From Prevotella sp. DNF00663 (lineage in GTDB: Bacteria > Bacteroidota > Bacteroidia > Bacteroidales > Bacteroidaceae): a stretch of DNA of 64,000 nt. Numbering within the stretch: position 1 is the stretch's first letter; the number at the start of each line of letters is the position of its first letter. The translations under genes were made by a program, and so were the position numbers. The DNA lies in contig NZ_KQ960593.1 in the NCBI RefSeq assembly GCF_001553265.1, positions 62,001-126,000 on the forward strand, in the 5' to 3' direction. Shown piece by piece: positions 51,345 through 62,982 of the stretch. The notes below the pieces were generated by a model that worked only from the letters and a program-made list of their open reading frames with translations, was not told the DNA's origin and did no database searches.

Positions 51345-52106
51345 ATGAAGAAATTATTGACATTGGCATTGGTTGCTGTCTTTATTTTAGGTACAGTAGG
51401 TTGTCGTTCGTATAGCAATAGCAGCTCGAAAGAGCAGATAGGACGACGCATTCAGGTTCGTCCTTTTGAACAAATAGAAACCCGTCTGTTGGGAAAAGTT
51501 GTTTATCAGCAGGCTGATACTTTGGGAGTACGATTGGAAGGGGATAAAGATAGGGTTAATAACGTATTGGTTTCGTACGACGGAAATCGTATTGTCTTGA
51601 GTCAAAAGAACAGCGTTAACTTTTTCCCTTTTGGCAATAATCAAGATGGAAAACTTACTATCTATATCTCATCTCCCGATTTGACGGCTGTCGAATTAAA
51701 GGGAGCCGGCTCTTTTGAAGTTGATGGCAAACTGGATACTGATACATTATCGTTGATATTGCGGGGTGCTGGAGATATGAATGTGCCTGATATTGTATGC
51801 GATTATTTTGCAGCTCAGCTTCATGGAGCAGGCGATATGCGCTTCGGACATGTAGAAACAGTGAGCAGCGATGTGCAGGTACGGGGGGTAGGTGATATTG
51901 ATATGAACCTACGAAATGCTGCTCGTGCCTATTTTAGTGTACATGGTACGGGCGATATAGATGCCAATTTAGATCGTTGTGGAACGGTAGATTGCGAACT
52001 TGCGGGTGTGGGTGACATCACCCTAAAGGGACAAGTCAAGCAGTTGAAGCAATCACTTCGTGGTACAGGAGATATTGATGTGTCTGATTTGCGTGTAGGG
52101 AAATAG
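51345..52106 (+). CDS. DUF2807 (head GIN domain) lipoprotein
   Basis: A 253-residue envelope lipoprotein with its lipobox Cys at residue 20 (GTVGC). The mature part is a right-handed beta-helix made of repeating short strands with GAGD, GVGD and GTGD turns (for example KGAGSFEVDG, RGAGDMNVPD, HGAGDMRFG, RGVGDIDMN, HGTGDIDAN and AGVGDITLKG). This is the DUF2807 auto-transporter-adhesin-like head domain, widespread in Bacteroidetes. The function is unknown, probably structural or adhesive. A hairpin (52136-52167) lies in the gap after it. Confidence 0.88.
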   Translation: MKKLLTLALVAVFILGTVGCRSYSNSSSKEQIGRRIQVRPFEQIETRLLGKVVYQQADTLGVRLEGDKDRVNNVLVSYDGNRIVLSQKNSVNFFPFGNNQDGKLTIYISSPDLTAVELKGAGSFEVDGKLDTDTLSLILRGAGDMNVPDIVCDYFAAQLHGAGDMRFGHVETVSSDVQVRGVGDIDMNLRNAARAYFSVHGTGDIDANLDRCGTVDCELAGVGDITLKGQVKQLKQSLRGTGDIDVSDLRVGK

Positions 52107-52193: not shown

Positions 52194-52233
52194 CTAAAAA
52201 GTTTTTGCTTTTTAGTGAATATGCTTAACTTTG
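52194..52233 (+). promoter_or_regulatory. Promoter of the CDP-alcohol cluster, with an overlapping hairpin
   Basis: TTTG (52204-52207), 18 bases, TAACTTTG (52226-52233). The -33 element sits in the loop of a small inverted repeat (CTAAAAAG 52194-52201 / CTTTTTAG 52208-52215), which could be an operator. The ATG at 52261 follows about 20 bases after the expected start of transcription. Confidence 0.6.
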
Positions 52234-52260: not shown

Positions 52261-52986
52261 ATGGATTATGCAATTATTGCAGCCGGCGAAGGTTCTCGTT
52301 TGGCCCAAGAGGGGGTGGAAGCGCCGAAGCCTCTAGTTAGAATTCAGGATGAACATTTGATTGATAGACTGATAAGAATCTTTATGGCGAATGATGCAGA
52401 GAGGATTTTTGTCATCTGTAATAGCAAAATGTCCGATGTAAGTTTACATTTGGTTAATCTTGAGAGGGATGGTTTGAATGGGCGCCCTATACCTTTGAAC
52501 TTCTTGGTAAAGTCTACCCCAAGTTCGATGCATAGCTTCTTTGAGTTGAGTAAGCATCTAACTCATGGGCCGTTCGTGCTGACTACAGTAGATACAATCT
52601 TCCGTGAGGATGAGTTTTCTGACTATATTCAAGCTTTTAAAAAGACTATCGAAGTGGGAGAAGATGGGCTGATGGGAGTAACAGACTACATTGATGACGA
52701 GAAACCGCTGTATGTAGGAACCGATCAAGAGATGAATGTGACAGGATTCTATGATGACTCTGTAGAGGGATGTCGGTATATATCGGGTGGTATATATGGC
52801 TTGACGGGGAGCGCAATCAATACACTTGCCGACTGCATGGAGCGAGGAGAAAGTCGTATGCGCAACTTCCAACGCGGACTGGTTAGAGATGGTCGCCGGT
52901 TGAAAGCATTTGCCTTTTCGAAGGTAATGGATGTTGATCATGCGTCGGATATAGTAAAAGCAGAGACGTTTTTGTCTAATCAATAA
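52261..52986 (+). CDS. Nucleotidyltransferase (CTP:phospho-alcohol type suspected)
   Basis: A 241-residue GT-A-fold nucleotidyltransferase. It starts MDYAIIAAGEGSRLAQEGV, with the nucleotide-binding loop AAGEGSR, then the PKPLV lysine motif and a TTVDTIF acidic element near residue 116. The open frame extends ten codons upstream, but that would run through the promoter. In a cluster with a CDP-alcohol phosphotransferase the expected role is activation of a phospho-alcohol or sugar phosphate with CTP; this is inference from context. The next gene follows after one base. Confidence 0.85.
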   Translation: MDYAIIAAGEGSRLAQEGVEAPKPLVRIQDEHLIDRLIRIFMANDAERIFVICNSKMSDVSLHLVNLERDGLNGRPIPLNFLVKSTPSSMHSFFELSKHLTHGPFVLTTVDTIFREDEFSDYIQAFKKTIEVGEDGLMGVTDYIDDEKPLYVGTDQEMNVTGFYDDSVEGCRYISGGIYGLTGSAINTLADCMERGESRMRNFQRGLVRDGRRLKAFAFSKVMDVDHASDIVKAETFLSNQ

Positions 52987-52987
52987 C

Positions 52988-53797
52988 TTGAAAGAGTTGA
53001 ACACGAGAGAGTTAAAAGTTGTAGGTGTTCGTCGAGACGATCGCTTTTCACCTAATTCTGTGGAGAAAGATCGGCTGATTTTAGAGGCTGTCGGACACCA
53101 TTTGGCTATGGATATGGTCGTAATAGATGAATCATTGCTCGATGAGAGTGTTGAAGCCGACATCATATTCTCTATGGCTCGCCTACCCAAGACGCTACAA
53201 GTGCTTCGCTTATTGGAGCAACGGGGAACTTTGGTTATTAATTCTCCGGTTAGTGTGGAGAACTGTTCGCGTACCAAACTGGAGCAAATGATGGCGGCAA
53301 TGGGTGTTCCTATGCCGGAAAAAACGGGACGAAACGGTTATTGGTTGAAGCGTGGCGATGCCGCAGCACAACAAAAAAGCGATGTCGTCTATTGTCGAGA
53401 TGCCGATGAATTGGCTGCTGCTAAGACTGAATTTGAGCGCCGTGGCATTACAAACTGGGTGGTGAGTGCACATGTTCTGGGCGATTTGATTAAATTTTAT
53501 GGCGTTAGAGGAGGTTTTTTCAAGTATTATTATCCCAGTGATGATGGTATCAGTAAGTTTGGAGCAGAGGCGATTAACGGGCAAGCCCAGCATTATCCGT
53601 TTGCTCTAGACGATTTGAAAGAGACCGTGGCAAAGGTTGCTGATATTACCGGTTTGGCTGTCTATGGTGGTGATGCCATTGTTGATGCTACCGGACATTA
53701 TTATATTATAGATTTTAATGACTGGCCTAGCTTCTCTCGTTGTCGCGAGGAAGCAGCTGCAGAGATAGCACGTTTGGCCGTCGATAATGATAGATAA
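52988..53797 (+). CDS. ATP-grasp-like kinase/ligase (ITPK-like features), TTG start
   Basis: A 269-residue protein I assign to the ATP-grasp fold. The VINSPVSVENCSRTKLEQMMAAMGVPMP region, shown by its core INSPVSVENCSRTKLEQM, and the C-terminal GGDAIVDATGHYYIIDFNDWPSF (core YYIIDFNDWPSF) give the fold away. The last block holds the metal-binding D-x-N. The layout recalls inositol-phosphate kinases of the ITPK type and RimK relatives; I hold this loosely. The only sensible start is TTG at 52988, one base after the previous stop codon; the next in-frame ATG would cut 40 residues. It lies between a nucleotidyltransferase and a CDP-alcohol phosphotransferase. Confidence 0.7.
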   Translation: MKELNTRELKVVGVRRDDRFSPNSVEKDRLILEAVGHHLAMDMVVIDESLLDESVEADIIFSMARLPKTLQVLRLLEQRGTLVINSPVSVENCSRTKLEQMMAAMGVPMPEKTGRNGYWLKRGDAAAQQKSDVVYCRDADELAAAKTEFERRGITNWVVSAHVLGDLIKFYGVRGGFFKYYYPSDDGISKFGAEAINGQAQHYPFALDDLKETVAKVADITGLAVYGGDAIVDATGHYYIIDFNDWPSFSRCREEAAAEIARLAVDNDR

Positions 53798-53802
53798 AAG
53801 AA

Positions 53803-54726
53803 ATGGAAAGTAGTTTTAAAGAGCTGTTACAGGCATCGTTTAAATCCCAAGATACCGAGGAGTGGTTGGATGTACACTTTACCCGTCCCATAGGACTGGT
53901 GTTTGCGCTCCTTTGGAATAAGTTGAATATCCATCCAAATGCAATTACTATCCTCTCTATTTTCTTAGGGATAGGTGCCGGATATATGTTCTATTTCACA
54001 GATTTGACGCATAATATCATGGGCGTATTGCTGTTGATGTTTGCCAATTTCTGTGATTCTACCGACGGACAGATGGCTCGTCTCACCGGTAAGAAGACTT
54101 TGGTAGGTCGTGTTTTGGATGGTTTTTCGGGCGATGTATGGTTTGCTTGTATTTATATAGCGATTAGTTTGCGCCTCATGAATGAGTATATGCCTTATAC
54201 AGATGTCAAGTGGGGCGTATGGATTTGGCTTCTTAATATTGTTGCCGGGCTTGTTTGTCATTCTCCACAAAGCTCTTTAAGCGACTATTATCGTCAGATA
54301 CATCTGTTCTTCTTGAAAGGTAAGAGTGGTAGCGAGCTAGATAATTATGCCAGTCAGCGTGCTGTTTACGAGCAGATGAAGCGAGATGGTAATCTCTTGG
54401 GACGCATATTCTACTACAATTATGCCAATTATTGCAAGAGTCAAGAGCGTCGTACGCCTAAATTTCAGGCTTTCTTCAAGCGTTGGCAAGAGCAGCCTAA
54501 CGAGGTGGTGAGGCAAGAATTCTTAACAGGAAGCCGCCCATTGATGGCTTATACCAATATTTTGACTTTCAATACACGTGCTATTGTCATTTACATTACG
54601 TGTTTGTTGAATTGTCCTTGGGCCTATCCGTTGTTTGAATTGTCGGTGATGACCTGTCTTTATATCTATATGCACAGTCGTCACGAGAGCCTGTGTGGTC
54701 GGCTGACCGCTAAACTTGCTCAATAG
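53803..54726 (+). CDS. CDP-alcohol phosphotransferase family membrane enzyme
   Basis: A 307-residue integral membrane enzyme that should join a CDP-linked donor to an alcohol acceptor, as in phospholipid headgroup synthesis. About six helices are visible. The signature begins Asp85-x2-Asp88-Gly89-x2-Ala92-Arg93-x8-Gly102-x3-Asp106. The last Asp is at 111, giving D-x4-D where the family has D-x3-D. That Asp is the catalytic base in characterised members, so this one-residue shift is notable. A basic loop with TGKKTLVGR and long soluble segments (about 165-225) separate the helices. It is adjacent to a nucleotidyltransferase, an ATP-grasp-like and a HAD gene. Confidence 0.85.
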   Translation: MESSFKELLQASFKSQDTEEWLDVHFTRPIGLVFALLWNKLNIHPNAITILSIFLGIGAGYMFYFTDLTHNIMGVLLLMFANFCDSTDGQMARLTGKKTLVGRVLDGFSGDVWFACIYIAISLRLMNEYMPYTDVKWGVWIWLLNIVAGLVCHSPQSSLSDYYRQIHLFFLKGKSGSELDNYASQRAVYEQMKRDGNLLGRIFYYNYANYCKSQERRTPKFQAFFKRWQEQPNEVVRQEFLTGSRPLMAYTNILTFNTRAIVIYITCLLNCPWAYPLFELSVMTCLYIYMHSRHESLCGRLTAKLAQ

Positions 54727-54753
54727 TTATTTAATATTTTAAAGCGTAAAAAG

Positions 54754-55458
54754 ATGATGGACGGGATAAAAGGATATATATTTGATTATGGGGGAACGCT
54801 TGATACTGCTGGTTGTCATTGGGGAAAAGTCTTGTGGTATGCCTATCAACGGCAGCAAGTCCCGGTGACCGAGCAGCAGTTTAGAGATGCTTATGTGCAT
54901 GGAGAGCGTACATTAGGCAATAGTCCTATTATCAAACCGGACTTTACTTTCTACCGAACGCTTGATGTAAAGATTCGCTTAGAGATGGAATGGTTGTGCG
55001 AACATGGGGCTTGGGATGCTGATCTTGAAGCCTTTAACCGAGCACACGATGCCGTATTAAACGATGTTTACGAACTTGTAAAGCGTAATACGGCGCACAG
55101 CCGTGAGGTATTGACCCGCCTGTCAAAGGTTTATCCCATGGTATTGGTGAGCAATTTCTATGGTAATGTAGAAGTTGTATTGCACGAATTTGAATTTGAG
55201 AAATTCTTTAAGAGTGTGGTAGAGAGTGCTGTTGTGGGCATCAGAAAACCCGATTCACGTATCTTTAAGATTGGAGTAGAACGATTGGGGCTGAACACCG
55301 AAGACGTAGTTGTGGTAGGCGATAGCTTCTATAAAGATATAGAACCCGCACAGAAGATCGGTTGTAAGACCGTATGGTTTAAGGGAGAGGGGTGGACCGA
55401 CAAGCAATATGACGAGTCGTTGCCCGACAAAGTGATTACTGATTTAGAGCAGTTATGA
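54754..55458 (+). CDS. HAD-superfamily hydrolase with a DYGGT motif
   Basis: A 234-residue HAD protein with a helical cap (about 20-115). Motif I is DYGGTLDT (Asp11 nucleophile), where the usual second Asp of DxDGT is Gly13. Motif II is LVSNFYG, with Ser or Asn. Motif III is the Lys in GIRKPDSRIF. Motif IV is VVVVGDSFYKDIEPA with the metal-binding Asp pair. Missing the acid/base Asp, it may be slow, act on unusual substrates or be structural. Its TGA stop overlaps the ATG of the DUF5686 gene (ATGA). In this cluster a phosphatase step after headgroup transfer is a plausible role. Confidence 0.88.
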   Translation: MMDGIKGYIFDYGGTLDTAGCHWGKVLWYAYQRQQVPVTEQQFRDAYVHGERTLGNSPIIKPDFTFYRTLDVKIRLEMEWLCEHGAWDADLEAFNRAHDAVLNDVYELVKRNTAHSREVLTRLSKVYPMVLVSNFYGNVEVVLHEFEFEKFFKSVVESAVVGIRKPDSRIFKIGVERLGLNTEDVVVVGDSFYKDIEPAQKIGCKTVWFKGEGWTDKQYDESLPDKVITDLEQL

Positions 55459-58073
55459 AAAGAATATTCAGGATATACATATTGTTAATAGGACTGTTGC
55501 TATTCTCTTCAGGAATAAAAGCGCAGATAACGGGTACCGTTACCGATGCAGCGACAGGCGATACACTGTTTTATCCCAGTGCATCTTACAAAGGACACCA
55601 TATCGCAGTAAGTGGTAATGCTTCGGGATTGTACAGTATTGAGCGGCACGAAGGATGGGTATTGACCATCAGTGCAGTAGGTTATCAGCCACGAACCTTT
55701 ATGATTAAGGCAAATACCCCGTCGGTATTGAATGTAAAACTGCGCGAGGATACGAAGACATTAACCGAAGTTGTGGTTAAAAGTAGTCGTGGTAAGTACT
55801 CTCGAAAGAATAATCCTGCAGTGGAATTGATGAGGCGTGTGGTTGCTGCCAAGAAGAAGACAGACTTGGATAATCATCCTTATTATCAGTATAATAAGTA
55901 TCAGAAGATAACTCTAGCAGTCAATGATATTAAGCCATTAGACATAGATAGCGGTTTCTTTGCGAAGAAACAATGGCTCATAGACCAAATAGAGACGAGC
56001 CCATATACTAACAAACTGATTCTTCCTGTATCGGTAGACGAGACCGTTTCGCAGCATATTTATCGTAAAGACCCGAAGTCTGAGAAGGATATTATCACCG
56101 GTCAGAACTCCAATGGTATCAATCAACTTATCCAGACCGGTGATATTCTGAATACAGCCATGAAGGATGTGTTCACCGATGTCGACTTGTACGATGACCA
56201 AATCAGGCTTTTACAGTATCCGTTCACAAGTCCTATAGGTAAGAATGCCGTGTCGTTTTACCGTTATTATATAGAAGATACGGTCTATGTAGACCATGAT
56301 TTATGTTATCATCTACAGTTTCTACCCAACAATCAACAAGATTTTGGATTCCGTGGAGAGCTGTATGTATTGGCCGATTCTACCCTGCATGTGAAACGAT
56401 GTGAACTTACTATCCCGAAAAGAAGCGATGTAAACTTCGTCGAGAATCTACATGTAACGCAGGAATTCAAGAAATTGGAGAATGGCGAATGGGTGTTGAG
56501 CGTCGACGATATGTTTGTGGAGATGAAGCTAGCTAGCTTTCTTTCCAAGTTCCTCGTGGTGCGGACAACCCGTTTAAGCGACTATGCATTCGATGAATTG
56601 CCAAAACAATTGTTTAAAGGTAAGGGCAAGGAGCGGCGTGAGGCCAACTCTATGATGCGCGACGAAGCTTTCTGGAACAGGTACAGAGGGGTGGAATTGA
56701 CAAAGAGCGAAAGTTCTATGGATGCGTTTATCCACCGAGTTGAGCAAATCAAAGGATTCAAATACATCATCTTCGGAGCCAAAGCTTTCATTGAAAATTT
56801 TGTTGAAACTGGCGATTTAAACCATCCGAGCAAGGTAGATATTGGCCCCATCAACACTATGTTGACCAAGAATTTCATTGATGGATTGCGTACTCGCGTG
56901 AGCGCACAGACCACTGCTAACCTGAATAAGCATTGGTTTGCATCGGGATATTTGGCTCGTGGATGGCGCAGTAAGAAGATTTATTACGAGGGAAATCTTA
57001 CTTATTCGTTCAATAAGAAGGACTATTTGCCGCGCGAATTCCCCAAGCGTACCCTTACGTTTACCTCAGCTTATGATGTGATGTCGCCTTCCGACCGTTT
57101 CATGCAAACCGATAAGGATAATGTATTTACAGCATTCAAGTGGGCAAAGGTAGATAAAATGATGTTCTACAATCGCCAACAATTGAAGTTTGAATACGAA
57201 GAAGAGTGGGGATTGAAGACCACTATAGGTCTCAAAACGGAAGCCAATGAAGCTGTGGGACGTCTGTTTTTCGAGCCTCTTAGTGCGATTTCGGCCACTA
57301 ATCCTTCTATGTTACCTACCTTGTCAGTGCTGGATGATAGTGAGGTTGGACGATATTTACACAACGGAAAGATTCGCACGACAGAATTGAGCATACAGTT
57401 TAATTTGGCACCGGGACGTACCTATATTAATACCAAGCAACGTCGACTGCCTATTAATCTCGATGCACCGGTATTTACCCTTGGCCATACGATGGGTATT
57501 AAAGGAGTATTGGGTGGTCAGTATAACTATAACTTCACCGAAGCTGGTGTCTATAAGCGCTTCTGGATGAATTCTTGGGGTAAGGTAGATGTGAAATTGA
57601 GGGCTGGAGCACAATGGAACAAGGTGCCTTATCCACTGCTTATCATGCCTGCGGCCAACCTTAGTTACATAGTACAAGAGGGAACTTTCAACATGATTAA
57701 CAACATGGAGTTCTTGAACGACCGTTATGCGAGCCTCGATGTAAGTTGGGATTTGAATGGTAAGATATTCAATCGTATCCCTTTGCTGAAAAAGTTGAAG
57801 TGGAGAGAGTACCTTGGTGTGAAGACATTGTGGGGCAAATTGACCGACAAGAATAATCCATTGCTTGAAAAGAATGCCGGTGATCATGTTTTGATGGCAT
57901 TCCCCGAAGGTACGTATGTGATGGATTCCAAACGGCCATATGTGGAGTTGGTGGCCGGTATTCACAATATCTTCAAGATTCTGCATGTGGAGTTCGTACA
58001 TCGCATGAACTACAACAATTTGCCTACAGCAAAGAAAAACGGTGTTCGTTTCATGTTGCGTATGACATTCTAG
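55455..58073 (+). CDS. DUF5686 outer-membrane protein with carboxypeptidase-like regulatory domain
   Basis: An 872-residue exported protein. It has a signal peptide (about 1-23, to IKAQ) and a CarboxypepD_reg-like beta-sandwich (about 24-95, GTVTDAATGDTLFYPSASYKG beginning with ITGTVTDAATGD). A linker follows with TLTEVVVKSSRGKYSRKNNP, then a large DUF5686 region that ends in a beta-barrel-like C-terminus (last residues RFMLRMTF, aromatic end). It is probably in the outer membrane. The carboxypeptidase-like domain recalls the start of SusC-type proteins, but no plug domain is visible. It is translationally coupled to the HAD gene by a 4-base overlap. Confidence 0.88.
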   Translation: MKRIFRIYILLIGLLLFSSGIKAQITGTVTDAATGDTLFYPSASYKGHHIAVSGNASGLYSIERHEGWVLTISAVGYQPRTFMIKANTPSVLNVKLREDTKTLTEVVVKSSRGKYSRKNNPAVELMRRVVAAKKKTDLDNHPYYQYNKYQKITLAVNDIKPLDIDSGFFAKKQWLIDQIETSPYTNKLILPVSVDETVSQHIYRKDPKSEKDIITGQNSNGINQLIQTGDILNTAMKDVFTDVDLYDDQIRLLQYPFTSPIGKNAVSFYRYYIEDTVYVDHDLCYHLQFLPNNQQDFGFRGELYVLADSTLHVKRCELTIPKRSDVNFVENLHVTQEFKKLENGEWVLSVDDMFVEMKLASFLSKFLVVRTTRLSDYAFDELPKQLFKGKGKERREANSMMRDEAFWNRYRGVELTKSESSMDAFIHRVEQIKGFKYIIFGAKAFIENFVETGDLNHPSKVDIGPINTMLTKNFIDGLRTRVSAQTTANLNKHWFASGYLARGWRSKKIYYEGNLTYSFNKKDYLPREFPKRTLTFTSAYDVMSPSDRFMQTDKDNVFTAFKWAKVDKMMFYNRQQLKFEYEEEWGLKTTIGLKTEANEAVGRLFFEPLSAISATNPSMLPTLSVLDDSEVGRYLHNGKIRTTELSIQFNLAPGRTYINTKQRRLPINLDAPVFTLGHTMGIKGVLGGQYNYNFTEAGVYKRFWMNSWGKVDVKLRAGAQWNKVPYPLLIMPAANLSYIVQEGTFNMINNMEFLNDRYASLDVSWDLNGKIFNRIPLLKKLKWREYLGVKTLWGKLTDKNNPLLEKNAGDHVLMAFPEGTYVMDSKRPYVELVAGIHNIFKILHVEFVHRMNYNNLPTAKKNGVRFMLRMTF

Positions 58074-58097: not shown

Positions 58098-58736
58098 ATG
58101 AAAATATTCCTCGCAGACAGGCAAGATATCACCCGCGCAGGCCTCATGTATCTGATAGAGCGACTACCGGATGCAGACTATAAGTATATAGAGGATAAGG
58201 GAGAACTATTGTTGGGTTTGCACGAATATCCCGACAGCATTGTTATTCTCGATTATACGCTGTTCGATATTAATGATGGTGAGGAATTGGTGATTCTAAG
58301 CCAGCGTTTCAAACGAGTCCATTGGATACTTTTCAGTGAAGATTTGAGTTTGGATTTTGTACGCTATTTGATTGCAAGCGGCCCTGAATTCAGTATCGTT
58401 ATGAAAGAATCTCCCTTGTCAGAGATAAAGACTTCGATAGATTATGCTATTCGGAAACAACGTTTCATCAGCCAACGTATGGCAGAGATGTTGCTGGCTC
58501 CGGTTCCTCAGATGGAAGAAAGAGTGAAGCTTACGAAGACAGAAACCGAAATATTAAAGGATATAGCGCTCGGTATGACGACCAAGGAGATTGCTGAAAA
58601 AAGGTTTTCCAGTTTCCACACCATCAATACCCATCGCAAGAATATCTTCCGTAAACTAAGCGTGAATAATGTGCATGAAGCCACTAAATATGCACTTCGG
58701 GCAGGCTTGATAGACTCTGCCGAGTATTACATATAA
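58098..58736 (+). CDS. NarL/LuxR-type response regulator with an altered receiver
   Basis: A 212-residue regulator with a receiver domain (1 to about 120) and a LuxR-type helix-turn-helix (about 145-205). The helix-turn-helix reads LTKTETEILKDIALGMTTKEIAEKRF (core LTKTETEILKDIALGMT) with HTINTHRKNIFRKLS as recognition helix. In the receiver the phospho-acceptor Asp sits in VILDYTLFD and the Lys in VMKESP is kept. The N-terminal acidic pair, however, reads ADRQD: Asp7 remains but the second Asp is Arg8. No histidine kinase gene is adjacent. It may work with weak or no phosphorylation. It begins 24 bases after the DUF5686 gene. Confidence 0.88.
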   Translation: MKIFLADRQDITRAGLMYLIERLPDADYKYIEDKGELLLGLHEYPDSIVILDYTLFDINDGEELVILSQRFKRVHWILFSEDLSLDFVRYLIASGPEFSIVMKESPLSEIKTSIDYAIRKQRFISQRMAEMLLAPVPQMEERVKLTKTETEILKDIALGMTTKEIAEKRFSSFHTINTHRKNIFRKLSVNNVHEATKYALRAGLIDSAEYYI

Positions 58737-58871: not shown

Positions 58872-59795
58872 TTAGAACTGATTACAACGCTCGAAGAAGT
58901 TGATGGCTTCTAGTTCTTTGCGCATGGCATCTTCCTCTTCTGCTGTCATATTGCGGAATGGTTTACGATTAGGACCAAGGTCGAAGCCCATTAATTTCAT
59001 GATACGTTTGCCTCCAACGATGTTTCCGCGATAATGGCAAATGACGTTGATGACCTCCTGAGCGAAGTTCTGATGTTCGCGAGCTGTCTCAATATCGCCC
59101 TTCTTCCAAGCGTCGATGATGGCTGTCAATTCGCGTCCATTGTAGTTGGTTGTACCCCCGATACCACCTTGAGCACCACCTTGAGCAAGTGAAGGCAGGA
59201 TGGTTTCGTCCTGTCCGTGCAACATATCAAACTTACCGTTCTTATACAAGCGGCATTGGTTGTACTCATACAGGCTCTCAAAGGTATATTTGATGCCGGC
59301 GAAGTTAGGTATACGACCGTCTACAGCCTTCAATAAGTCGAGCATGGGGAGGAATGCTCCGTTGAAAGCAGGGATGTGATAATAGTAGAAAGGCAACTCC
59401 GGTGCAGCGGCAGCTATCTCTTCACAGTATTCTACTAGTTCTTCAATGCGTCCGATTTTAGGGAATGGAGGCGCCATAGAGCCGATACCGAAAGCTCCAA
59501 TCTGCTGTGCATGGGCAGCCAATTCTCGGCTGTCGCGCAGACAGCAGCTTCCTACATGGACAATCACCTTGAATCCTTCGGGAGCTTCGGCAATCCATTT
59601 TTCGGCCAGTTGTTTGCGTTCTTCGGTAGTCAGCATGTAGCCTTCACCGGAAGAACCATTGATGAAAACACCCTTTAACCCATTCTTTTGCAGCATACGA
59701 GCATATGCTCCGATGGGTTCTAAGTTTACGTCGCCATTCTCATAAAACGGAGTAAATGGTGCGTCAATCAATCCAATAATCTTTTCCATATTCAT
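58872..59795 (-). CDS. nanA: N-acetylneuraminate lyase
   Basis: Cleaves sialic acid to N-acetylmannosamine and pyruvate. The 307 residues form the DHDPS/NAL TIM barrel. The carboxylate-binding motif is NGSSGEG (about 46-52). The catalytic Tyr lies in YYYHIPAF (Tyr139) and the Schiff-base lysine is Lys169 in GIKYTFES. The downstream VINVICHY and the C-terminal GFDLGPNRKPF are conserved in sialate lyases of Bacteroidetes. An ATG two codons further in (59789) is also possible. It is the last gene of the right-edge minus-strand locus. Confidence 0.92.
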   Translation of the reverse strand: MNMEKIIGLIDAPFTPFYENGDVNLEPIGAYARMLQKNGLKGVFINGSSGEGYMLTTEERKQLAEKWIAEAPEGFKVIVHVGSCCLRDSRELAAHAQQIGAFGIGSMAPPFPKIGRIEELVEYCEEIAAAAPELPFYYYHIPAFNGAFLPMLDLLKAVDGRIPNFAGIKYTFESLYEYNQCRLYKNGKFDMLHGQDETILPSLAQGGAQGGIGGTTNYNGRELTAIIDAWKKGDIETAREHQNFAQEVINVICHYRGNIVGGKRIMKLMGFDLGPNRKPFRNMTAEEEDAMRKELEAINFFERCNQF

Positions 59796-59828
59796 AATTA
59801 TATGTATGTTTTTATGTTTGAATCTGTT

Positions 59829-61061
59829 TTATTCTAAGTTGTCGGCCTTCGGTTTAAGGAAGATGAGCTGCAATAATAGGGCAGCCAACATGACCAAACT
59901 GAGCCAAGCAAAGCCTTCACCCAGCATTCCACCGTCTTTCCATTTGCCTAGTACCTGTGTCACGGCAGCTCCGGCAAACACACCGGTCATGTTCATGAGG
60001 CCGTAAGCAGTAGCACGATAACGTGAGGAAATGAACTGGCAAAGTATCGGCATGTTGTTGGCGTCGAACATTCCAAAGCCAATACCGAAGAGACAGCCGG
60101 CTCCGACGATGGCCAACAGACTATGTCCGTAGCCTAAAAGCAGGAGCGATGGGATGGTAAGACCAAGTCCGATGGCACTAGTATAGATGCGACCACGCAG
60201 GCATCGTTGCACCCATCGGTCGGATAAGATACCACCTAAGATGACTCCTAAGAACGAAGAAGCGGCTATAGTGATGGTAGAGATGGGGCCGGCTTGTTCC
60301 ATTGAAATACCAAGATTGGTAGCGAAGAGTGTCGGTAGCCAGTTTTTAGTAGCCCAGCCCGGCAGACTTGGGGCTGCAAAGAAGAAGAGGATTATCCAAA
60401 AAGTCCATATAGAGAGGACGATACCTAGACTACTGAAGACTGAGGATATACCACGTTTTTGGCCTTCCTCGGCCGAAGCTTTCGCATGTTCGGGTTTCTC
60501 GTGGAGGAGCAACAATAGTACAACGGCGTAGGCAATGCCTATCAATCCGAAGCTATGGAAGGCTGTGTGCCATGTGAATAGTGAGGCTACGGCAGCACCG
60601 AAACCACCAATAGCCTGCCCCACATAGAGGCCGGTCATGTGGATTCCAATAGCTAGTGAGCGCGTTTTTCCATCGTGCCAGTCGGCAATGAGCGATAGGG
60701 CAGAGGGTATATAGAGTGCTTCGCTGATGCCCATGATGCCACGTAACCAGTAGAGAGTGTGGAAATCGTTGGCATAGCCCATAAGGAATGTGACTAAAGA
60801 CCATACGAACAAGCTACCTACGATGAGCCATTTACGACTTACGCGGTCGGCAATGACGCCTGAGAAGGGGCTGGCAAGGCCATAGACCCATAAAAATGCT
60901 GCCATCAAAGCACCGAATGCCTCGGCACTATTGAGCTCGTGTATATCTAGCGACATAGCTTCCTGCATGGTGGAAAGCATCTGTCTGTCCATGTAGTTGA
61001 GTAGAGCTACAATCCATAGTAGGGCTACGACTACCCATGGATAATATTTCTTATTTGTCAT
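59829..61061 (-). CDS. MFS transporter of a sialic-acid locus (NanT-like)
   Basis: A 410-residue major facilitator with twelve helices. The loop between helices 2 and 3 has GVIADRVSRKW, the MFS signature form, and GGILSDRWVQR repeats it in the second half. Placed directly upstream of nanA (33-base gap) and downstream of a NanM-like mutarotase gene, it is likely the inner-membrane sialic-acid importer. The sequence alone would also fit the ACS/sugar-acid transporters of the same superfamily. Confidence 0.85.
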   Translation of the reverse strand: MTNKKYYPWVVVALLWIVALLNYMDRQMLSTMQEAMSLDIHELNSAEAFGALMAAFLWVYGLASPFSGVIADRVSRKWLIVGSLFVWSLVTFLMGYANDFHTLYWLRGIMGISEALYIPSALSLIADWHDGKTRSLAIGIHMTGLYVGQAIGGFGAAVASLFTWHTAFHSFGLIGIAYAVVLLLLLHEKPEHAKASAEEGQKRGISSVFSSLGIVLSIWTFWIILFFFAAPSLPGWATKNWLPTLFATNLGISMEQAGPISTITIAASSFLGVILGGILSDRWVQRCLRGRIYTSAIGLGLTIPSLLLLGYGHSLLAIVGAGCLFGIGFGMFDANNMPILCQFISSRYRATAYGLMNMTGVFAGAAVTQVLGKWKDGGMLGEGFAWLSLVMLAALLLQLIFLKPKADNLE

Positions 61062-61108
61062 TAGGTTTTGGTTTTATTAGTCAATGGGGCTTATTGGCCT
61101 CATCGATA

Positions 61109-62212
61109 TTATTTAATCGTTATCTTGTAAATGCCTGTTGAGCGGATGCCCGGCTTGAGTTCGCCGCCAATCTCATAGAGATGAGTACCGTCGGTGAATA
61201 ATGCTGCACCAGCACGAGCTGTTGCTTCGCTCTCTCCGATAGTTTTCCATTGTCCATCTTTAAACTGCATGACGAGTCGATTGAAGCGATACCATTCTAC
61301 AGGATGGGTCATATAGCCCGGTTGGGGATGGTTTACGGCATTGAGGAATATGTCTTTGTTGACACCACCCATGGCGATAATGCTTCCATCGGACAGGGTT
61401 GTGGCACATCCACCACCTAGGAAAACGGTCTCTCCTGTGTTGTCGGTAGCAGCAGGGAGAGCAGTCCATGTGGCAGTATTGAAATCGTATTGCCAACCTT
61501 CTAAGCCTAATTGGGTGTCTTGAGCTTCCGTCCTTGGCGACGAACCGCCCCAAAGGCAAATGCTATTTTCGGCGAAGGCGCAAACTGGTTGTACGCGTGG
61601 AATTCCGGGAAAGTCGGGTAATTGCTGCCAACCTTTATCAAGTGCCGACAGTTCCAGCATCAATACGCGATTAGAAGCATGTCCGTTCCAGTTGCCACCT
61701 AGCACAATTAAACTGTCGCCAATGGCACATCCGGCATGATTGTCTAGCTTGGCAGGAAGTGTAGGAAGATTGGTTATCTCGGCTTTACCGCCTTTTAACG
61801 TGATGGCATAAGTGGTATTCAGGCTTGATTCTGCGTTGTTGCCACCGATACAATAGAGCGTTTCGCCCTTCACAATGCTTACGCCGTAAGCTATTGGGGT
61901 AGGGAGCTCTCCCACTTTTTCCCAAACGTTGGTATCAGAACCATTGACAGCTGTAGCGTAGATACCTTGATAGTATCTTTTTTCTCCTTTCTCTGCTGCT
62001 GGTCGTTCGGGGAAATTACATCCTCCGACCATAACAAGATGGTCTTGAATGAGTCCGGCAAAGCATGCCGATACTCCCTTTTCTATACCAGCTTCTGCAG
62101 TAGGAAAACCTTTTAATTGTTGGATATTCATCTGTAGCGTATATTGTTGGCTTGCTCCACACATCGATGTGAGGCAGGCAGTTAGTAATAACAAAATAAA
62201 TCTTAAGGCCAT
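61109..62212 (-). CDS. Exported Kelch-repeat protein, NanM-like sialate mutarotase
   Basis: A 367-residue exported beta-propeller. It has a signal peptide (about 1-20) and then Kelch-type repeats with Gly-Gly pairs (VMVGGCNFP, LYCIGGNNAES, LIVLGGNWNG, ICLWGGSSP, FLGGGCATT, IIAMGGVNKD, LYEIGGELKPG). NanM speeds up the alpha-beta interconversion of free sialic acid, giving the importer its preferred anomer. The locus context (nanA, importer) supports this role. The start overlaps the creatininase-family gene by ten bases. Confidence 0.87.
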   Translation of the reverse strand: MALRFILLLLTACLTSMCGASQQYTLQMNIQQLKGFPTAEAGIEKGVSACFAGLIQDHLVMVGGCNFPERPAAEKGEKRYYQGIYATAVNGSDTNVWEKVGELPTPIAYGVSIVKGETLYCIGGNNAESSLNTTYAITLKGGKAEITNLPTLPAKLDNHAGCAIGDSLIVLGGNWNGHASNRVLMLELSALDKGWQQLPDFPGIPRVQPVCAFAENSICLWGGSSPRTEAQDTQLGLEGWQYDFNTATWTALPAATDNTGETVFLGGGCATTLSDGSIIAMGGVNKDIFLNAVNHPQPGYMTHPVEWYRFNRLVMQFKDGQWKTIGESEATARAGAALFTDGTHLYEIGGELKPGIRSTGIYKITIK

Positions 62213-62982
62213 GCTTCGTAGAAATCTTCTGTTTTTTCGATTTTAGCAAAGTCGCGTAAAAACTCGGCATAGCTCTCACATACAGCATTAGCAAACTTCT
62301 TTCCCTTTTCAGCCGTAGATAGGTGAGGGGCGCCAATGCCTGTATCATGCGATACCATATCCCACTGTCGGGGCATCCAAACGTTGCCAGTCTTCATCGC
62401 TTTGATGGCATAGCCACGGCTTTTGCCGTTCCCAGTCTCATCAAGACGGACAAGTTCGGGATGATAATGCATCATGACAGAGGTCTCAACCTCATCGGCA
62501 TGGTCGCCCGGTGTGGTAAAAAAGTCTTTAGGATTGATATGATTGAACCAGTTGCTAACCGTTATTAAAAAGTTAGGATAGTCTATTGATAGGTCTCTAA
62601 TCATGTTCTTGAAGTTGTTTCCGCCATGCCCGTTGATAATAAAAAGTTTACGGAAACCTTGATGATGGAGCGAACTTACGATGTCGGTGAGGATAGCTTT
62701 CTGCGTTTCATAGCGTCCGTGAATGCAGAAAGGAAGTTCGCGTTGTCCCAGATTTTGTGAACCTAGCGTGATAGGAGGCATTACCATACACCTTACATTA
62801 TATTTCTGAAAAGCTAATTGGGCTGCGTCTGCGGCAACGGCATGTGAGAGAATACAGTCTGTCATGTAAGGTAAGTGCCAGTTGTGAGGCTCTGTTGCTC
62901 CCCAAGGCAACACGATCACTTCGTAATCTAAGTCTTTGGCAATGCCGTAAGTGGATACTGTTAAGTCTGTTTCTCTATTCAT
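62203..62982 (-). CDS. Creatininase-family amidohydrolase
   Basis: A 259-residue metal-dependent hydrolase of the creatininase fold. Metal-site residues are visible in PWGATEPHNWHLPYMTD (Glu31, His36, Asp42 as the likely ligands), NGHGGN (a family signature) and GDHADEVETS with the Glu ligand. No signal peptide is present. Family members open cyclic amides or N-formyl groups in creatinine, mycofactocin and riboflavin-type pathways. Its place in a sialic-acid locus suggests a sugar-lactam, deacetylation or similar substrate, but this is only inference. It lies between the GH109-like and NanM-like genes. Confidence 0.85.
   Translation of the reverse strand: MNRETDLTVSTYGIAKDLDYEVIVLPWGATEPHNWHLPYMTDCILSHAVAADAAQLAFQKYNVRCMVMPPITLGSQNLGQRELPFCIHGRYETQKAILTDIVSSLHHQGFRKLFIINGHGGNNFKNMIRDLSIDYPNFLITVSNWFNHINPKDFFTTPGDHADEVETSVMMHYHPELVRLDETGNGKSRGYAIKAMKTGNVWMPRQWDMVSHDTGIGAPHLSTAEKGKKFANAVCESYAEFLRDFAKIEKTEDFYEAWP

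Follow-up and report, generated by a model that had tools for sequence, protein, structure and literature searches.

What do five closely packed genes, all read in one direction at positions 52261-58073 of a 64,000-nucleotide stretch of Prevotella sp. DNF00663 (contig NZ_KQ960593.1; the whole stretch is called the window here), make together? A first-pass annotation had regarded them as an undescribed pathway for a CDP-activated polar headgroup, laid out in one orientation behind a single promoter. All five open reading frames (ORFs) were recovered at this place and on this strand, and Pfam names four of the five:

52261-52986, + strand: nucleotidyltransferase (NTP transferase), proposed CTP:inositol-phosphate cytidylyltransferase; ATG start; PF00483, 3.6e-9
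52988-53797, + strand: ATP-grasp protein, proposed inositol kinase; TTG start; recognized by predicted fold, outside the Pfam families
53803-54726, + strand: CDP-alcohol phosphotransferase (CDP-AP); PF01066, 1.2e-11
54754-55458, + strand: HAD-family hydrolase, proposed phosphatase partner of the ATP-grasp protein; PF00702, 7.9e-15
55455-58073, + strand: DUF5686 outer-membrane-type protein with a CarboxypepD_reg-like N-terminal domain; PF18939, 1.2e-52, and PF13715, 1.1e-9

Overall, we lean slightly towards reading the locus as a Kennedy-like (CDP-headgroup) inositol-lipid operon. The ATP-grasp enzyme, previously overlooked, is an obligatory member of the cluster and is newly recognized here.

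We compared the presence of the genes in 200 genomes of the genus and observed that the NTP transferase and the ATP-grasp gene occur in exactly the same 111 genomes. The HAD gene was found in 110 of these, and the CDP-AP subfamily of the window occurs in 120 genomes, and 110 of those also carry the ATP-grasp gene. The four genes are inseparable and the set is far from chance; conservation of just one or two of them, which the first-pass annotation had named as evidence against its own reading, was not what we found. An NTP transferase that makes NDP-sugars unrelated to the CDP-AP was rejected as a candidate, as the two genes co-occur in 110 of 111 genomes. In several loci neighboring genes are joined in one ORF: NTP transferase with ATP-grasp (L125, L133, L136 and L137), ATP-grasp with HAD (L134, and others judged by open-frame length) and CDP-AP with HAD (L109, L110, L135 and L137). 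From these fusions we conclude that the four genes form one pathway. Where the operon is split (L141/L142, L143 and L145), ATP-grasp remains with HAD and the NTP transferase with CDP-AP. A search for the gene order across Bacteroidales, as the first-pass annotation had proposed, showed that it recurs in 19 families of the order, the genus itself included; outside the genus the recurring arrangement is NTP transferase, ATP-grasp, CDP-AP, (LPG-synthase-like), HAD and (inositol-phosphate synthase, MIPS). Across 80 loci from other species, the order of the window is the commonest (37), and MIPS lies directly 3' of HAD in 23. One genome (G032, L124:187-6414) holds a second, rearranged copy, MIPS-DUF5686-CDP-AP-NTP transferase, in which ATP-grasp is cut to 160 aa and a HAD remnant is left.

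The cluster is not undescribed, as had been supposed: Heaver et al. (2022, PMC9246714) had already proposed a pathway of NTP transferase, CDP-AP and HAD protein. According to that study, B. vulgatus and P. veroralis lack the genes of B. thetaiotaomicron yet produce PI-dihydroceramide, and an alternative cluster adjoining MIPS, common in Prevotella, encodes an NTP transferase yielding CDP-inositol, a CDP-AP and a HAD protein suggested to be the PI-dihydroceramide synthase, with a carboxypeptidase-regulatory-like gene nearby. The lipid was measured there in both species, and both carry the alternative cluster, which supports the inositol-lipid reading. The window cluster belongs to this alternative cluster as a MIPS-less copy. 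The two share the three genes, the carboxypeptidase-regulatory-like neighbor, the genus and the CDP-AP-HAD fusion (seen here in L109 and L110); they differ in that MIPS is lacking from the genome of the window, an obligatory ATP-grasp gene is added, the role of HAD is doubted, and the CDP-AP lacks the fourth aspartate (D4) of the search pattern used in that study. A text search of PMC9246714 returned no mention of ATP-grasp. A full-text literature search returned no later biochemical test of the alternative route, although one in subscription papers could be missed, and a review of 2023 (PMC10191378) still treats the route as predicted in silico. In another genus of the same family the order is MIPS-NTP transferase-ATP-grasp-CDP-AP-LPG-synthase-like-HAD (L309), which matches the locus-tag spacing of B. 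vulgatus (BVU_RS13095/13105/13115); we infer that the two loci correspond.

The first-pass annotation had also seen a logic related to that of the B. thetaiotaomicron inositol-lipid cluster, and this is borne out. Both systems share inositol lipids (proposed ones for the window), a link to MIPS and a DUF5686-type neighbor. However, the phosphatidylinositol-phosphate (PIP) synthase/PIP phosphatase cluster (BT_1522-1526) uses CDP-diacylglycerol and inositol phosphate as substrates and contains neither an NTP transferase nor a kinase. We rejected the CDP-AP of the window as a BT_1523-type PIP synthase, since its match to NF052561 reaches 16.2 bits (0.0066) against a cut-off of 350 bits, a cut-off reached by no genome of the genus.

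The place of action of the three genes for NTP transferase, ATP-grasp and HAD (the trio) is indicated by a natural swap. Ten genomes carry the CDP-AP without ATP-grasp: one is G227 (80% complete), and the other nine hold an IspD-like cytidylyltransferase and none of the trio. The IspD-like genes of the nine are at least 73% identical to that of L131, and in seven the gene is divergent and adjoins the CDP-AP gene. In none of the 111 ATP-grasp genomes was this gene found (Fisher p about 1e-12, shared ancestry ignored). We rejected the possibility that it is the housekeeping IspD, as all nine genomes hold a second IspD-type match (28-30% identity listed for six). On a quickly built CDP-AP tree with 17 open forks and one probably misplaced row (L118), the IspD-like state has at least two origins among trio-bearing relatives. 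As one cytidylyltransferase replaces three genes, the trio must act upstream of CDP-AP, making the activated headgroup. DUF5686 remains with CDP-AP in IspD-type clusters as well (L268, L272 and L273) and therefore may act on the product, e.g. in outer-membrane transport.

Next, we considered the identity of the headgroup. Of 106 genomes that have the cluster and no PIP synthase, 86 contain MIPS; the corresponding figures are 28 of 34 where the B. thetaiotaomicron-type PIP synthase stands alone and 3 of 45 where any such cluster is lacking. Because MIPS tracks the cluster, its substrate is very probably inositol. The first-pass annotation had noted no inositol-phosphate synthase gene in the window, and this holds for the whole genome, which is 99.87% complete and gave no match to MIPS (PF07994) anywhere; the B. 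thetaiotaomicron-type PIP synthase was not found in it either. Of the 41 near-complete genomes with the cluster, 10 (that of the window included) lack MIPS while keeping the kinase, and the presence of MIPS among cluster genomes changes state at least six times on the CDP-AP tree. The loss of MIPS would be understandable if the kinase acts on free inositol. The B. thetaiotaomicron-type PIP synthase is present in five further cluster genomes that lack MIPS, and in two of these (L338:5533-15663 and L339:6367-15490) it is embedded, together with a PIP phosphatase gene, in the alternative cluster, so that both inositol-lipid routes share one locus.

The individual enzymes were then examined by profile and by predicted structure. 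The profile of the NTP transferase matches a nucleotidyl transferase of T. maritima (4jd0, 1.7e-7, residues 2-229), and also phosphocholine cytidylyltransferase (1jyk) and CTP-inositol-1-P cytidylyltransferase (2xme); a weak match was observed to the Thermococcales model for inositol-P cytidylyltransferase/DIPP synthase (1.5e-6). For the CDP-AP the class I fold is confirmed by PF01066 above its cut-off. Its model (pLDDT 94.2) is closest to AF2299 (Z 18.9 over 209 residues) and the archaeal IPCT-DIPPS (Z 16.5), and profile and model together rank these two before PIP synthases and choline phosphotransferases. These neighbors lend support to the earlier idea of a CDP-activated headgroup. CDP-AP and NTP transferase are together nearest to the archaeal CDP-inositol system, which we count in favor of an inositol headgroup. 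In IPCT-DIPPS and AF2299, from archaea and hyperthermophiles, a cytidylyltransferase is likewise paired with a CDP-AP, but both activities are fused in one protein, the products are soluble and ATP-grasp is lacking. The Caulobacter CpgD pathway (PMC12275187) likewise uses a cytidylyltransferase to activate a sphingolipid headgroup; there the headgroup is phosphoglycerate, and a CDP-AP is unmentioned in that work.

The signature D1xxD2G1xxAR...G2xxxD3 is present in the CDP-AP, with D85, D88 and D106 invariant in 130 CDP-APs. The D4 column holds Gly, Ser, Glu or Thr in all 130 (Gly at residue 110 here), and D4 is also absent from every trio-linked CDP-AP inspected across the order, unlike in the aligned AF2299 sequence. 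D4 is the presumed catalytic base, and a PIP synthase in which it was exchanged from D to N was left with almost no activity (PMC4634129). Heaver et al. (PMC9246714) state that D4 is part of the pattern by which they detected the B. vulgatus enzyme, which is at odds with a CDP-AP lacking it. Judged from the alignment, a shift of the base by one residue is possible, as the residue following the D4 column is acidic in 110 of 130 sequences; Asn at this place in several MIPS-bearing clusters (L317, L327, L328, L330 and L331) argues against it. Alternatively, the conserved residues D161, H167 and E279 could take the role of D4.

The ATP-grasp protein gave no Pfam match, the ITPK domain included, and its closest named relatives are in Prevotella, Hoylesella and Hallella. 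Its predicted structure is confident (pLDDT 92.8), with RimK/LysX as nearest neighbors (Z 19-20.6, RimK at 20.6), followed by synapsin, plant ITPK1 (18.6) and PPIP5K2 (17.8). The best PDB matches of its profile are plant ITPK4 (1.7e-4, 53 positions), the ligase PsnB (0.001) and ITPK1 (0.004), and the two ITPK matches support the resemblance to inositol-phosphate kinases suspected at first pass. K121, K169, D229, D242 and N244 are invariant in 24 relatives, and the metal motif is D-x-N in this protein and the aligned ITPKs. An ATP-grasp fold with D...D-x-N ligands fits ITPKs, and it is compatible with other ATP-grasp kinases as well. Eukaryotic and Asgard ITPKs share the fold and the motif but act on phosphorylated inositols. 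The protein is probably an inositol kinase, a view drawn from its motif, its partner genes and the MIPS pattern rather than from strong homology. Of the class IA motifs I-IV, the HAD protein has the nucleophile D11, the S/T of motif II, K165, D190 and D195 conserved, while motif I reads D-x-G in 40 aligned relatives, the second Asp being replaced by Gly; loss of this Asp need not abolish HAD activity (PMC7614388). Arabidopsis ITPK4 also has a HAD-like domain, whose function is not known (PMC7614388); the parallel to the ATP-grasp/HAD pair is no more than suggestive.

The proposed Kennedy-like pathway would start from glucose 6-phosphate where MIPS is present and from scavenged inositol where it is not, as in the genome of the window. 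With fair probability the ATP-grasp protein would phosphorylate free myo-inositol to inositol monophosphate; the NTP transferase is then quite likely to convert this with CTP to CDP-inositol, and the membrane CDP-AP, with similar likelihood, to transfer phosphoinositol to diacylglycerol or dihydroceramide as the lipid alcohol, with release of CMP. The weakest step, proposed with some doubt, is that of the HAD phosphatase, which might work with the kinase, e.g. by dephosphorylating inositol 3-phosphate (Ins3P), the product of MIPS, before the ring is re-phosphorylated at position 1. Such a pair of phosphatase and kinase, shifting the phosphate from position 3 to 1, would account for the trio and for the fact that a single IspD-like enzyme can take its place. 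A narrower and distinctly tentative version is that the trio of HAD, ATP-grasp and NTP transferase acts as a module turning Ins3P or scavenged inositol into CDP-1D-myo-inositol, with a D-1 linkage, and that the base-less CDP-AP uses it.

Several observations weigh against the inositol-lipid pathway. Genomes without MIPS retain HAD, although they would have no need of a phosphatase for Ins3P. The presumed catalytic base is absent in 130 of 130 CDP-APs, so the chemistry of the enzyme may differ. By fold, RimK-type ligases score highest for the ATP-grasp model, and the weak match to ITPK sequences covers the C-terminal part instead of the full length. Three IspD-type genomes, one of them 94% complete, gave no MIPS match, and an inositol headgroup is therefore not proven for them.

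Among the alternatives, a rather unlikely one is that the ATP-grasp protein is an inositol-phosphate kinase acting on Ins3P, that the doubly phosphorylated ring is activated and passed by CDP-AP into a PI-phosphate lipid, and that HAD removes the extra phosphate last. ITPK-type kinases do act on phosphorylated inositols, the HAD-CDP-AP fusion in four inspected loci would suit a phosphatase working on the CDP-AP product, and the retention of HAD without MIPS fits as well; however, MIPS-less genomes would need an imported phosphorylated substrate or another kinase, and HAD is also fused to ATP-grasp. It is unlikely, too, that the headgroup of MIPS-less species is another CTP-activated polyol or sugar phosphate, as might be thought from the ten near-complete genomes that carry the cluster without MIPS and from known IspD-type enzymes, which act on ribitol 5-phosphate and methylerythritol phosphate; on the CDP-AP tree MIPS-less and MIPS-bearing members are intermixed and the former make up no separate subfamily. 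We consider it quite unlikely that HAD is an AUR1-like PI-dihydroceramide synthase acting after CDP-AP, with ATP-grasp as an accessory: this is the published proposal (PMC9246714) and the CDP-AP-HAD fusions would suit it, but the protein resembles soluble HAD hydrolases, starts directly with motif I and has no apparent membrane segment. Its travelling with ATP-grasp argues against a membrane synthase, since HAD stays with ATP-grasp in split operons and is lost with the rest of the trio beside the IspD-like gene, which points to an upstream role. That ATP-grasp is a RimK-like ligase by which the headgroup or a protein receives an amino acid is very improbable, for despite its top structural scores with RimK, LysX and ArgX and a weak TIGR00768 match (6.9e-6 over 50 residues) it has the D-x-N motif of the aligned ITPKs instead of the E-x-N of the ligase PsnB, and the fusion with the nucleotidyltransferase, seen in four of the inspected loci, suits a kinase that feeds this enzyme.

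The layout of the locus is compact: the genes are separated by 1 base (NTP transferase to ATP-grasp), 5 bases (to CDP-AP) and 27 bases (to HAD), HAD and DUF5686 overlap by 4 bases (ATGA), and 24 bases further lies a possible sixth gene, which the first-pass annotation had left unlisted and which is also found 3' of DUF5686 in some relatives (L093 and L094). Two features accompany the five genes:

52204-52233, + strand: Bacteroidetes-type promoter TTTG-N18-TAACTTTG, from a pattern scan
58098-58736, + strand: LuxR-type regulator, possible sixth operon gene; PF00196

The promoter pattern has five matches on both strands of the window, compared to 1.35 expected by chance, and the scan gave no further match within the cluster. 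ATG 52261 is the likelier start of the NTP transferase because the in-frame TTG 52231 falls inside the promoter. Directly 5' of the cluster lies a DUF2807 gene (51345-52106), as in L095, L100, L102, L104 and L106, a link that may be merely positional. On the minus strand, convergent to the cluster, 58872-62982 holds dihydrodipicolinate-synthase/NanA-like, MFS transporter, kelch-like and creatininase-like genes, which, read from their sequences, look like a block for sialic-acid use.

We also observed a second CDP-AP subfamily in Prevotella (L113-L123, e.g. L122:6784-11496), about 40% identical to the first and also without D4. Its neighbors are a HisC/CobD-like aminotransferase, an LPG-synthase-like membrane protein and another NTP transferase, with no ATP-grasp gene; by these neighbors it could belong to a CDP pathway for an amino-alcohol (e.g. 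ethanolamine-like). In L129:6333-17000, L330 and L331 aminotransferase-type and inositol-type clusters stand side by side, and there the canonical D4 is retained in the CDP-AP that goes with the aminotransferase.

Taken together, our comparison adds an obligatory enzyme to the predicted second route to inositol lipids and doubts the published role of HAD, while the swap of three genes for one IspD-like gene indicates where the trio acts. With its missing D4, this CDP-AP is well suited to testing the mechanism accepted for the enzyme family as a whole. If the module of HAD, ATP-grasp and NTP transferase works as tentatively proposed, the linkage would be of the eukaryotic D-1 type and the ATP-grasp protein a new kind of myo-inositol kinase. 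In B. thetaiotaomicron the loss of inositol or inositol lipids altered capsule expression, resistance to antimicrobial peptides and host fitness (PMC9246714). Under the proposed pathway, some Prevotella should need inositol from their surroundings: with such a module, gut Prevotella could drop MIPS and rely on this source for their inositol lipids, and the bacterium of the window, which lacks MIPS, may build them from scavenged inositol via its ATP-grasp kinase.

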